Shown here: piece after piece, positions 696 through 63,532 of the stretch | How the letters are laid out: each line of letters starts with the position of its first letter | Position numbering within the stretch: position 1 is the stretch's first letter | DNA from: Polyangiaceae bacterium | GTDB taxonomy: Bacteria > Myxococcota_A > Polyangia > Polyangiales > Polyangiaceae | Direction: 5' to 3' | DNA length: 64,000 nucleotides | Assembly: GCA_020849655.1 (NCBI GenBank) | Contig: JADLFU010000008.1 | Span: 1-64,000 of the forward strand | Notes under the pieces: model-generated | The model's database searches: none | Seen by the model: only the letters and a program-made list of their open reading frames with translations | What the model was told of the DNA's origin: nothing | Made by a program: the position numbers and the translations under genes

Positions 696-1765
696 AGTCC
701 GTCGCCGCGGCCTCGATCTCGCTCCTCGTCGCGTGCGGCGGCGCCCGCGCGCCCACGCCGTCGCCTCGCCCGCTCGCGCCGGCTCCCGCCGCGCCCTCGC
801 CGCCCGCGCCGAGCGCGTCCGCGGATCTCGACCCCTCGTGGGAGCGCGTGACGCTCGTCTCGTTGCCGGAGAGCAAGCTGCCGCTCCCCGCCGAGGCGTC
901 GCCCTCCGCGCACGAGGTGCTCTGGGAGGACGACGGCTGCGGGCCGCAGGCGATCGCGGGCAGCGGGGAGGCGATGTTCGTGTTGTGTAGTCGCCAGGGC
1001 GAGGTGCTGCGCGTCGGCGCAGACAAGCAGGCGCGCGTCCTCTACCGGAACGAGGCCCCGCTGGCGTTCCAGGCGCTCGGCGGCGATCAGGTGTTCGTCG
1101 CGCAGGCGGGCGCGGGCGTGGTGCTGTCGTTCCCGCAGGCGGGCGGGCCGTTCCGCGTGCTCACGCGCGGCGTCGACGGGCCGCACGGCCTCGGGGCGGA
1201 CGGGCAGGCCGCGTACGTCGTCTCGCCGCAGCGCCTCGTGCGCGTGACCCGCGCGGGGGACGAGCGCGTGCTCGCCCACACGACCGCGACGGTGACGTCG
1301 CTCGTCGCGCGCGCGGGGGAGGTCGTGTTCGTCGACGCCTTGCCGGCGACCGCGATCGCGCCGTCGCGCTCGGTCGTGCTCCGCGTACAGGGCGCGGGGG
1401 CGCCGACGCTGGTCGCGGCGTTCGCGGAGCTGATCGATCGGCTGGCCGGCGACGATCAGGCGCTCTACGCGCACCTCGCGCAGCGAGACGAGCTCGTCCG
1501 GCTGCCTCGCGCGGGCGCGCCCACGATCCTCACGCGCACGCGCGGCGTCGCGTCGGGGCCGCTCTCGGACGGACGGCACGTGTACTGGCTCGAGACGGCG
1601 GGCGGCGCGCCCGCGGTGCTCCGCGCGAAGGCGACCGGCGGGCCAGCGGAGATCGCGCTGCAGCTCTCGCCGAACGACGCGCCCCAGCAGCTCGCGCTGA
1701 CCGACGCGCACGTGCTCGTGCTCCTCGTGACACCGAGCGCGCGCGTCGTGAGGGCGCCGAAGTGA
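692..1765 (+). CDS. Secreted lipoprotein with beta-propeller-like repeats
   Basis: I placed the start at the GTG at 692 because it gives a clean lipoprotein signal (VKSVAAASISLLVACGG, lipobox LVAC) and a GTGA overlap with the upstream stop. The product is 357 residues. After the lipidated Cys comes a Pro/Ala-rich tether of about 35 residues. The rest is made of repeated short strand patterns, such as GQAAYVVSPQRLVRVTRAGD and DGRHVYWLETAGG, of the kind seen in NHL/SMP-30-type beta-propellers that begin each blade with a DG-x-YW strand. No catalytic residues are recognisable. It is probably an outer-membrane-anchored periplasmic or surface protein. Its stop overlaps the next gene by 4 bases. 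Confidence 0.75.
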   Translation: MKSVAAASISLLVACGGARAPTPSPRPLAPAPAAPSPPAPSASADLDPSWERVTLVSLPESKLPLPAEASPSAHEVLWEDDGCGPQAIAGSGEAMFVLCSRQGEVLRVGADKQARVLYRNEAPLAFQALGGDQVFVAQAGAGVVLSFPQAGGPFRVLTRGVDGPHGLGADGQAAYVVSPQRLVRVTRAGDERVLAHTTATVTSLVARAGEVVFVDALPATAIAPSRSVVLRVQGAGAPTLVAAFAELIDRLAGDDQALYAHLAQRDELVRLPRAGAPTILTRTRGVASGPLSDGRHVYWLETAGGAPAVLRAKATGGPAEIALQLSPNDAPQQLALTDAHVLVLLVTPSARVVRAPK

Positions 1766-3243
1766 TCGCGCGGCGGCTCGCGGCGCTCGCCGTCATGACG
1801 ACGATCGTCGCGTGCGGCGGCGGCGCGGACGACGCGCCCGACGTGTCCGTCACGCCCGGCGCAGGCGGCGCGGGCGGCGCGGGCGCGGCAGGGATCGCGG
1901 GATCGAGCGGCGCCGCGGGCGTGACCAGCGCCGCGGGCGCGGCGGGTGGCGCGGCATCGAGCGGCGCCGCGGGCGGCGCGGGGGCGAGCGGCGCCGCGGG
2001 TGGCGCGGGCGCGAGCGGTGTCGCGGGTGCCGCGGGTGGCGCGGGCGCCAGCGGATCACCGGCGGCGACGCGCTATCCGATCGGGCAGGTCCACTCGCCG
2101 CTCTCCCCGTCCGTCGTCTCGCGCGCGAAGGCGACGCTCGCGAGCGGCTCGGGCAGGCCGACGGTGTTCGCGAAGATCGGCGCGTCGAACACGGTCGCGG
2201 CGGGCTTCGCGCGGTGCTTCGCGACGGGCGACGTCAAGCTCGGCGCGCACGCGGCGCTCGCGCCCGCCATCGCGCACTTCGGTCAGACGAAGGTCGACGC
2301 CGATCATGTGTCGTTCGACCGGGTGACGCTCGCGGCGACGGTCGGCTGGGGCGCGAAGAAGACGCTGGAGGGCTCGCCGTCGCCGATCGAGCAGGAGGTC
2401 GCCGCGATCGCGCCGGGGTTCGCGGTGCTCCTGCTCGGCACGAACGACACGTACGAGGCGGGCGTCGCGCCGTTCGACGCCAGCATGTCGGCCGTGCTCG
2501 ACGCGCTGCTCGCGCTCGGCGTCGTGCCCATCGTCACCACGCTCCCGCCCCGCCGGGACAGCGCGGCGGCGAGGGCGCTCGTGCCCGAGATGAACGCCAT
2601 CTTGCGGGCGCTCGCCGAGGAGCGGCAGGTGCCGCTCGTGGATCTCTTCTCGGTGCTCGATCCGATGCCGAACGGCGGGGTGGGCGCGGACGGCGTCCAT
2701 CTGCCAACCTACACGGACGCGGGCGCGCACGGGTGCTGGCTCGACGACGCGGGCCTGTCCGCGGGGATGAACCAGCGCAACCTGGTCACGCTCGAGGCGC
2801 TCGACAGGGTCCGCCGCGTCGTGGTCGGCGACGAGGCGCCCGAGCCGCCGTCGCCGCCGCTGGCGGGCGTGGGCACGCTGGCCGATCCGCTCGTCGTCGA
2901 CGCGCTGCCGTTCGCGCACCACGGCGACACCACCGGCGCGCCGTCCTCGCTGTCACTCTACTCTTGCGGCGCGCAGGACGAGGGCGGCGGTGAGCGCGTG
3001 TACCGCGTCACGCTCCCGGCGCCGGCGAGCCTGTCCATCCGCGTGTTCGACGACGCGACGACCGACGTCGATCTGCACGTGCTGTCGCAGCCCTCGGCGA
3101 GCGCGTGCGTGGCGCGGGACGATCGCGCGCTCGTCGTCGACGCGCCTGCCGGTGACACATTCGTCGTGGTCGACACGTTCCAGAAGGCCGGCGTACCGCA
3201 GGCCGGCCGTTACCGGCTCACCATCGTCGCAACCCAACCGTAA
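1762..3243 (+). CDS. SGNH-hydrolase-like lipoprotein with Gly/Ala-rich tether and C-terminal PPC domain
   Basis: The GTG start at 1762 overlaps the previous stop and opens a lipoprotein signal with lipobox TIVAC. Residues ~30-95 are a low-complexity Gly/Ala/Ser tether. The core has SGNH/GDSL features: a block I-like GAS (KIGASNTVAAGF) in place of the usual GDS, a block III GTND (VLLLGTND), and a block V-like D-G-V-H (GADGVHLPTY). The C-terminal ~125 residues resemble a pre-peptidase (PPC) beta-sandwich, with TTDVDLHVLS near its middle. The expected activity is ester or acyl hydrolysis on a surface glycan or lipid. The changed nucleophile block leaves the Ser in place. The substrate cannot be read from the sequence. 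Confidence 0.8.
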   Translation: MIARRLAALAVMTTIVACGGGADDAPDVSVTPGAGGAGGAGAAGIAGSSGAAGVTSAAGAAGGAASSGAAGGAGASGAAGGAGASGVAGAAGGAGASGSPAATRYPIGQVHSPLSPSVVSRAKATLASGSGRPTVFAKIGASNTVAAGFARCFATGDVKLGAHAALAPAIAHFGQTKVDADHVSFDRVTLAATVGWGAKKTLEGSPSPIEQEVAAIAPGFAVLLLGTNDTYEAGVAPFDASMSAVLDALLALGVVPIVTTLPPRRDSAAARALVPEMNAILRALAEERQVPLVDLFSVLDPMPNGGVGADGVHLPTYTDAGAHGCWLDDAGLSAGMNQRNLVTLEALDRVRRVVVGDEAPEPPSPPLAGVGTLADPLVVDALPFAHHGDTTGAPSSLSLYSCGAQDEGGGERVYRVTLPAPASLSIRVFDDATTDVDLHVLSQPSASACVARDDRALVVDAPAGDTFVVVDTFQKAGVPQAGRYRLTIVATQP

Positions 3244-5403: not shown

Positions 5404-6141
5404 ATGCAGGTCGATCGACAGAGGCTGAAGGACGCGGCGCGCGTCGTCGGGCGCGCCGCCGCGACGATCGCGGTGCGGGTCGCCGCGTGGGGGGCGCTGG
5501 GCGCAGGGTTGGGTTTGTTCGCTGCGGGCGTCGAGCTCCTGTCGCCCCTGCTCGACGCGCCTCCGTCGTGGTGGTCGCTCGCGCGGCTCGTCGTGCTGGT
5601 CGTCTACCCGGTGGGCGGCGCGGTCCTCTTCGCGCACCTCGGGGTGGCGAGGGGGATCGGGCGGGTGCTCTTGTTTCACGCGGTGGACCAGGGGCTCGTG
5701 ATCGAGGTGCTCGACCGGCTGCTCGAGCTCGCGGGGCGCGCGGCCGGGAGGAGCGCGCGCCTGTCGGCGCTGGCGGATCGCGCCGAGGTGTTCGCCGCGG
5801 AGCTGCCGCTCGCCGACGCGGAGCGCGCGCTGAAACAGGCAGGCGACGAGTTCGTGCTGGGGAGCGACCTCGAGGGCGGCGGCGCGGGGCGCTGGGTGAT
5901 GCGGCGGCTGAAGCGCGCGCTCGTGCACGCGATCGAGCGGGTCACGCTCCGCGTCGTGCGGGCAGAGGAGGGTGGGGTGTCGCTCGAGCGCGTGCGGCGC
6001 CTGGCGCTCGAGCAGGCCGAGGCGGGCGTGCGCGACGCCATCCTCTCGACCATGAAGAAGCAGCTGCTGCTCGCCGCGGCGCTGCTCGCGCTGCTGGTCG
6101 CGACGGGCCCCCTCCTCGCCGCGGTGTTGCGGGCGAGATGA
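5404..6141 (+). CDS. Hypothetical inner-membrane protein with amphipathic middle
   Basis: This 245-residue protein is not recognised. It has two hydrophobic helices near residues 20-45 and 55-80, a long charged helical middle (residues ~95-220, rich in Arg, Glu and Leu), and a final hydrophobic helix (KKQLLLAAALLALLVATGPL). The layout suggests an inner-membrane protein with a cytoplasmic helical domain. Base composition and codon use match its neighbours. Its stop overlaps an ATG at 6138 that could serve as an alternative, longer start for the next lipoprotein, so coupling is possible. Confidence 0.65.
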   Translation: MQVDRQRLKDAARVVGRAAATIAVRVAAWGALGAGLGLFAAGVELLSPLLDAPPSWWSLARLVVLVVYPVGGAVLFAHLGVARGIGRVLLFHAVDQGLVIEVLDRLLELAGRAAGRSARLSALADRAEVFAAELPLADAERALKQAGDEFVLGSDLEGGGAGRWVMRRLKRALVHAIERVTLRVVRAEEGGVSLERVRRLALEQAEAGVRDAILSTMKKQLLLAAALLALLVATGPLLAAVLRAR

Positions 6142-41419: not shown

Positions 41420-41895
41420 GCCACATGACTTTGACAACCGAAGGAGACTGTGAAGTCGTCGTCAGGCGCAGGTTCGCCGCCAGCCCCCAGGAGGTGTACG
41501 ACGCGCACCTCGACCCCGAGCTCATCCCGCAGTGGATGACGGGGCCGGACGGCTGGACGATGCCCGTCTGCCGCAACGACGGGCGGGTCGGCGGCCAGCT
41601 CCGCTATGAGTGGGCGGGGCCGGAGGGTCAGGGGTTTCACTTGACGGGTGAGCTGCTCGTGCTCGAGCCGGGCCGCCGCATCGTCCACGTGGAGCGCATG
41701 TTCCTCCCCGATCCGACGCCCGACAACCGCGTCGAGACGATCTTCGTGCCCGACGGCGAGGGCACCCTGATGACGATGCGCATGACGCTGCCCGACCCGG
41801 AGACACGCCGCGCGATGCTCGCCAGCGGCATGGAGCACGGGATGGAAGCCGGCTACGTGCGGCTCGAGGACCGGCTCGCGGGGCGGCGCGGGTGA
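41416..41895 (+). CDS. SRPBCC (AHSA1-type) domain protein
   Basis: The ATG at 41416 overlaps the regulator's stop. The 159-residue product is a full START-like helix-grip fold: VVVRRRFAASPQEVYDAHLDPELIPQWM, GGQLRYEWAGPEGQGFHLTGEL, and the C-terminal helix RAMLASGMEHGMEAGYVRLEDRL. AHSA1-like proteins bind hydrophobic ligands in a deep pocket; the ligand is unknown. The ArsR + AHSA1 (+ DUF1801) arrangement is common in bacteria and supports one co-regulated unit. Confidence 0.88.
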   Translation: MSHMTLTTEGDCEVVVRRRFAASPQEVYDAHLDPELIPQWMTGPDGWTMPVCRNDGRVGGQLRYEWAGPEGQGFHLTGELLVLEPGRRIVHVERMFLPDPTPDNRVETIFVPDGEGTLMTMRMTLPDPETRRAMLASGMEHGMEAGYVRLEDRLAGRRG

Positions 41896-42377
41896 GCGGC
41901 GCACCCGGCGAGGACATCGAGGCCTACAACGCCTCGCAGCCGGCGCCCGCACGCGCCCTCTGCCGCCTGCTCGCGGAGCGGATCGCCGCGGGGCTGCGGG
42001 GCGCGGAGGGCAGTGTGGCACGGCGGGCCGGTGTGGTTCCTCGATGGCAACCCCATCGTCGGCTACTGGGTGAGGAAGCGCCACGTGCAGCTGTTGTTCT
42101 GGAGCGGCCGTCCTTCGACGAGCCGGGCCTCTCGCCCGAGGGGACCTTCAACATGTATTTCGGGGTCCCTTCGTCGCGCGCGCCGGATTCCTTGCGTCCT
42201 TCGGCCGCTTTGGGTGAAACCGTGCTGTTCAAGGCCGCCGAGCTGCGCCTCACCGCCGTCGACCAGCTATCACTTACCGACCTCGGTCGCTGGCTGGGCA
42301 AGGCGAAGCGGATCCAGTGGGACTACAAGCACCTCGTCAAGCGAAGAGGCGCGCTCGAGAAGATCGGCGACTGGTAG
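41892..42377 (+). pseudogene. DUF1801-type (YdeI-like) gene, frameshifted and interrupted by an 81-bp insertion
   Basis: A GTG at 41892 overlaps the AHSA1 stop and starts EDIEAYNASQPAPARALCRLL. The expected middle, VWHGGPVWFLDGNPIVGYW and VRKRHVQLLFWSGR, is present only in another frame (42010-42105). Apparent losses of 2 bases near 42012 and 1 base near 42107 explain this and restore the frame. The tail FKAAELRLTAVDQLSL to WDYKHLVKRRG is normal for the family. Between GTF and KAAEL sits an 81-base insertion with a 5-base duplication. A 161-residue frame survives by chance because the indels sum to 3 and the insertion is a multiple of 3. Confidence 0.75.
42152..42227 (+). mobile_element. 76-bp MITE-like insertion flanked by TTCAA duplications
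   Basis: The insert begins CATGTATTTCGGGGTCCC and ends GGGTGAAACCGTGCTG. It is bounded by TTCAA at 42147-42151 and 42228-42232. Removing the insert and one TTCAA restores the conserved GTFKAAEL of the DUF1801 gene, which fixes the boundaries. The same sequence, about four-fifths identical by eye, recurs in reverse orientation within 63440-63512. It has no coding capacity of its own and would need a transposase in trans. Terminal inverted repeats are weak in this copy. Confidence 0.7.
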
Positions 42378-42680: not shown

Positions 42681-42751
42681 CTCCGGTGCGTGGATTCGAA
42701 CCACGATAGGAGGATTCAAAGTCCTCAGTCCTGCCTTTGGACGACACCGGA
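42681..42751 (-). tRNA. tRNA-Gln (anticodon TTG)
   Basis: The 71-nt cloverleaf reads as follows. The acceptor TCCGGTG pairs with CACCGGA. The D-arm is GTCC/GGAC with loop AAAGGCA. The anticodon arm is GAGGA-CTTTGAA-TCCTC, giving anticodon TTG. The variable region is CTAT. The T-arm is CGTGG-TTCGAAT-CCACG. The discriminator is G, as in bacterial tRNA-Gln. The CCA end is not encoded. It lies 18 bases downstream of the DTW-domain gene on the same strand, so it may be processed from the same transcript. Confidence 0.93.
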
Positions 42752-63297: not shown

Positions 63298-63337
63298 GCG
63301 CGCCGGGCCACGCCAGGCGGCGGCGAGTGGTGCTCAG

Positions 63338-63512
63338 CATGGATTTCGGGAGCCCAGACCGCGAGTGCCGAAGTCCGAAGCGGAATTTCGAGCCGGATGG
63401 GGCTGGAGCCGCGCGCAGGCCTGGCCGTGCCACGTCGAGCACGGCTTCACCCGAGGCGGCCGGTGGACGCGAGGAGTCCGGCGCAGGCGACGAAGGGCCC
63501 CCGAAAACCATG
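63338..63512 (-). mobile_element. 175-bp MITE-like element, second copy of the 42152 family
   Basis: The ends are inverted repeats: CATGGATTTCGGGAGCCC at the left and, reversed, CATGGTTTTCGGGGGCCC at the right (16 of 18 bases match). Flanks CTCAG (63333-63337) and CTAAG (63513-63517) look like a 5-bp duplication with one mismatch. About 70 bases at the right end, read on the minus strand, match the insertion at 42152-42227, including CCCTTCGTCGC, GCGCCGGA and GGGTGAA. No transposase is encoded. Apart from this element I see nothing in the gap 63298-63532. Confidence 0.7.
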
Positions 63513-63532
63513 CTAAGAGTCGGGGCTCGCCC

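Follow-up and report, generated by a model that had tools for sequence, protein, structure and literature searches.

The window, a 64,000-nucleotide stretch (G000:C8:1-64000, from a genome assembly of 6.56 Mb in 307 contigs that is 96.9% complete), contains a DUF1801-type gene on the plus strand (41892-42377). Comparison with an ortholog showed that this gene is interrupted by an element and carries two more frame changes. The window sequence reads TTCAA at 42147-42151, followed by a 76-bp insert at 42152-42227 and a second TTCAA at 42228-42232, all on the plus strand. Alignment to the family consensus identified the insert as a shortened palindromic element, consisting of consensus positions 1-75 plus a final G; it is 94.7% identical to the consensus over the left 75 bp and lacks approximately 98 bp of the right half. 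Excision of the 76 bp together with one TTCAA gives ..SPEGTFKAAELRL.., which reads EGTFKAAEL, and the insertion and duplication proposed in an earlier interpretation of this DNA (hereafter the sequence-only reading) were thus exact to the base. The ortholog in another genus (genome G009, locus L124) reads ..LPEGTFQASHVFY.. (EGTFQASHV) and contains neither the insert nor the 27 codons that it adds to the window gene.

The host gene itself is probably dead or misassembled, judging from its reading frames. Its VWHGGPVWF..LLFWSG stretch lies in a different frame from both ends, and these two further frame changes imply either a pseudogene or errors in the assembly. The sequence-only reading placed the insertion in a conserved gene; the G009 ortholog supports the DUF1801-type assignment, but the gene is not otherwise intact. 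The ortholog matched Pfam DUF1801 (PF08818) with an E-value of 2.3e-5 and 25.2 bits, just below the cut-off of 27.2, and the window ORF itself had no Pfam match. The insert plus one target copy amounts to 81 bp and is in frame, which, given the two other frame changes, is incidental rather than a sign of a working protein. A tRNA gene lies near the interrupted gene on the minus strand (42681-42751) and was the sole match in an Rfam search of 41000-64000.

The insert belongs to a family of 174/175-bp elements, each a long imperfect palindrome over its full length (CATGGRTTTCGGG..CCCGAAAYCCATG) with CATG termini. Local alignment located a second, full-length copy of 175 bp in an intergenic region of the window (63338-63512, minus strand), with 84% identity to the first over the shared 75 bp. 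Its target copies, read on the plus strand, are CTCAG (63333-63337) and CTAAG (63513-63517), both listed with the element on the minus strand; the related copy announced by the sequence-only reading therefore exists, but the two sides of its 5-bp duplication match at only four of five positions. A homology search of the own genome returned 40 scored matches among 244 candidates, and the terminus pattern matched 84 times, compared with 0 for a reversed-pattern control. Among 30 full-length own-genome alignments, 15 were 174 bp and nine were 175 bp, with identities to the consensus of 82-99% (median, 94%). For the own genome, the count of distinct insertions reaches at least 43. It is based on 25 copies with both flanks, 14 left-only ends, and 18 right-only ends; in some cases, a left and a right end may stem from a single insertion. 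Many of its contigs terminate within the element. The palindrome folds as DNA with -55.6 kcal/mol (z = -6.8), and none of 200 shuffled sequences folded as well.

Shortened copies include the window copy, locus L103, which keeps approximately the right half, and remnants of 22-45 bp with a terminus and a target still in place. Leftovers of approximately 12-22 bp, adjoining target-like CTCAG, CTGAG, or TTCAA, were seen near position 3594 of L076, 3448 of L078, and 3553 of L085; by their sequence, they look like internal palindrome deletions.

Mobility of the family was evident from comparison with a sister species of the same genus (G001). The query comprised the first 2484 of 4644 bases and thereby 14 of the 26 sites; clear empty sites with continuous sequence were found and aligned for L037, L056, L058, L061, L090, L032, and L107. 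A further empty site, for L027, had short flanks; candidates for L054 and L040 were ambiguous, and L052 was matched by one flank only. Two of the clear empty sites lie in genes (L037, EEP-type nuclease; L061, YgiQ-like) and three at gene starts (L056, SbcD-like; L090, ArsA-like; L107, DUF4920 lipoprotein-like). The names SbcD and YgiQ are presumptive assignments from sequence; Pfam identified a calcineurin-like phosphoesterase in the former and radical SAM domains in the latter. The copy inside the YgiQ-like gene (L061:1501-1675) adds 180 bp and leaves the frame open, and Pfam Radical_SAM_N matched this gene as two stretches.

The distribution of the family was narrow. G001 has few copies of its own, mostly divergent, and a DNA search of 97 relatives detected the family in these two genomes only, besides one 38-bp noise match. 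Across the class (317 members), terminus matches numbered 84 in the own genome, seven in the sister species, and 0-3, a number not exceeding noise, in each of the 315 others. Among GTDB species genomes, a set from which near relatives may be absent, the internal element pattern retrieved no records and the terminus pattern six, all unrelated. With dozens of further copies, an ortholog that lacks the 27 codons, 5-bp duplications, and empty sites in the sister species, the proposal of a small mobile repeat family is supported.

Target copies are mostly YTSAR (C/T-T-G/C-A-G/A). In 28 full-length copies, including that at 63333-63517 of the window, the flanking 5-bp sequences formed perfect direct repeats in 15 cases and matched at four or more of five positions in 24, and no pair formed inverted repeats. 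Re-pairing of left and right flanks (20,000 rounds) gave a mean of 5.0 perfect pairs and a maximum of 12, as against the 15 observed. The first target base differed between the two copies in six of the 28, and the right copy had C in all six. Plain 5-bp duplication does not predict this C, and the bias therefore counts against it; the constant C may be either part of the element or corrected through hairpin pairing.

These mismatches raise the possibility, which we regard as real but doubtful, that only TSA, 3 bp, is truly duplicated, as in IS5-type elements, and that the neighbouring G..C bases belong to the element. IS5-type targets are TNA, with a 3-bp duplication. Besides the six cases with C, L058 is consistent with such an arrangement, its target in the sister species being ATGAG and its right copy CTGAG. 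Against it, the copies agree at all five positions in L034 (CTGAA/CTGAA) and L053 (ATGAA/ATGAA), and profile searches for the IS5-type families PF13340, PF13586, and PF13359 gave no match in either of two genomes.

To relate the insertions to genes, we used 25 of the 30 full-length alignments from the own genome; the other five lay at contig ends or had a short flank and were set aside. Gene calls were made on reconstructed empty sites with a codon-usage script trained on the window rather than with a standard gene finder. Eleven of these insertions lie on a stop codon, seven are intergenic, one overlaps a start, and six are in called genes, although the L095 copy and one of the two L070 copies, called intragenic, are better read as gene starts. 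In each of the eleven, the TGA stop of the flanking gene occupies target bases 2-4, and the duplication preserves it. Control CTSAG sites (n = 140) fell on stops in 13 cases, in intergenic regions in 28, and in genes in 99; these and the other control sites come from approximately 273 kb of own-genome sequence chosen for carrying elements (masked), a small and non-random sample. A direct frame test found a stop within the target in 11 of 25 insertions versus 14 of 132 CTSAG controls (p = 2e-4), and a stop combined with an in-frame start of the next gene at the terminal ATG of the element in six of 25 versus none of 132 (p = 9e-6). Insertions were also depleted inside genes (6/25 versus 99/140; p = 1.4e-5).

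Pfam matches supported eight of nine ORFs beginning at the ATG of the element and seven of ten upstream genes; the ninth ORF, at L043, had no Pfam match. The eight comprise a calcineurin-like phosphoesterase, an ABC-2 permease, a glycerol-3-phosphate acyltransferase, a protein kinase, an HD-domain protein, an endonuclease III-type protein, an ArsA-type ATPase, and a DUF4920 protein. Where the target is ATGAG, the original start, ATG AG., becomes ATG CTG AG. and is still in frame.

Such a pattern could arise if the element actively targets gene ends, namely stops or ATGA overlaps of stop and start, instead of being left there by selection, an explanation that we consider unlikely. The eleven insertions on stops point in this direction, as do the ratio of stop to other non-coding positions (11:8 versus 119:463 for all TSA sites; p = 5e-4 to approximately 0.001) and the frequency of a stop with an in-frame start (6/25 versus 28 of 3484 TSA sites). 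However, against CTSAG sites, a closer match to the real target, the ratio is 11:8 versus 13:28 (p = 0.05), and it becomes 11:10 versus 13:28 (p = 0.10) when the two start-edge copies are moved; copies also occur inside genes (L037, L061, L007, and the window). Because intragenic insertions are depleted and the stop excess over non-coding sites is weak (p = 0.05-0.10), we favour the survival of harmless insertions as a simpler cause of the stop-codon pattern.

Taken as a whole, the family is very probably a nonautonomous DNA transposon, or MITE, confined to one genus. The element is shorter than 500 bp, has terminal inverted repeats, is flanked by target duplications with corresponding empty sites, and is multicopy; at 174/175 bp, it is too short to encode a transposase. 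That it might instead be a structural repeat of the REP/ERIC kind, maintained because it serves the host and not transposed as a unit, is highly improbable. The hairpin is strong and conserved, and both sides had changed in six of 49 pairs in a pairing test, as such a repeat would suggest, but the copies have direct duplications, empty sites with a single target copy were found, the covariation term was +0.19, and the family is limited to one genus. This covariation term gives no support to a conserved RNA structure despite the six double changes. REP/BIME elements are defined as lacking target duplication, and the direct target duplications set the family apart from this class. IS630-type MITEs such as RUP and Correia, with a TA target, were rejected in view of the YTSAR target. 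Least probable of all is a Rickettsia-type palindromic element adapted to in-frame positions inside proteins: the 81-bp addition in the window and the 180-bp addition to the YgiQ-like radical SAM gene keep the frame, but most full copies are 174 bp ((174 + 5) mod 3 = 2), only six of 25 lie in called genes, and the window gene is shifted in frame at two further places. Active frame preservation is ruled out by the element lengths.

For the MITE, we propose that a transposase, which may be lost or missing from the assembly, recognised the CATGGATTTCGGG termini, that the cut termini would have been joined to a short palindromic target, and that repair would then have created the duplication. Persisting copies would mostly be insertions that broke nothing, a frequent safe site being a gene junction with a TGA stop inside the target. 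At such a junction, the duplication would leave the stop with the upstream gene, while the terminal ATG and the right target copy would lie in frame with the downstream gene; to judge from the sequence, the ATG of the element would serve as its start codon. The right half of the window copy may have been deleted later, as is expected for long palindromes.

The sequence-only reading had looked to a full-length element with matching termini and a transposase, and the assembly searches found none. The 85 terminus matches with at most one mismatch in the own genome did not include two that were spaced like transposon ends and had matching targets; there was likewise no autonomous pair among 40 loci (L068-L107), nor, at up to two mismatches, among the matches listed of 194. 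A further 46 loci (L171-L216, comprising 30 class-wide terminus matches, six GTDB records, and ten fetched stretches) contained no convergent pair with matching target copies at transposon length. Transposase profile searches covered PF01609 in addition to the three IS5-type families; PF01609 had five matches in the two genomes (L108-L112), three of them above the cut-off, and no element-like termini were present near these loci. The missing partner is weak evidence because the fragmented assembly breaks inside these repeats. At L112 (G000:C186), positions 796-3231 on the minus strand contain an ORF of 811 aa whose match to DDE_Tnp_1 is weak and falls short of the cut-off; by its sequence, it looks like a large transposase-like protein.

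We tentatively suggest, as a less than even prospect, that the ends and the target of the transposon suit operon junctions and that the hairpin, with a start codon at its base, may throttle downstream translation. If so, the TGA-centred target would double the stop and the CATG termini would replace the lost start codon, allowing entry into overlapping ATGA pairs, even co-transcribed ones, with neither gene broken. The family offers a concrete and testable case of a mobile element entering packed operons harmlessly, the stop being kept by duplication and the start supplied by the element end. If the start codons at the hairpin foot are used, a set of genes has shifted its translation start via one element family. 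Since the sister species has empty sites, the genus-specific MITE burst is also datable.

Compared with known systems, the element shares with bacterial MITEs, such as the 178-235-bp Chunjie of Geobacter uraniireducens, its short length, terminal inverted repeats, direct repeats, many copies, absence of a transposase gene, mostly extragenic location, and shortened copies, as far as these are described in the portion of PMC10969869 consulted. The same portion describes bacterial MITEs as typically AT-rich, whereas the present element is GC-rich, palindromic throughout, and flanked by a YTSAR target, has no related autonomous IS found, and often lies at stop/start junctions (PMC10969869). QMITE2 of Coxiella, reported mainly from 3' untranslated regions, is similar in its size of approximately 190 bp, its proximity to gene ends, and its numerous shortened copies; stop and start rebuilding is not mentioned for it in that portion, a comparison by description only (PMC10969869). 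RUP, an IS630-type element, and Correia elements resemble the family in size, hairpin, and copy number but have a TA target instead of the 5-bp YTSAR, according to the part of PMC2229807 consulted. In the literature searched by title and abstract start, neither a myxobacterial MITE nor an element that restores both a stop and a start codon was described. Rickettsia palindromic elements are likewise palindromic, approximately 150 bp long, and at times in frame in proteins, whereas the present element is mostly extragenic and usually not frame-preserving.

One arrangement of copies stands apart. L070 (G000:C11) carries two full copies, at 2850-3023 and 5857-6029, in opposite orientation and approximately 2.8 kb apart, and this pair could act as a composite unit.
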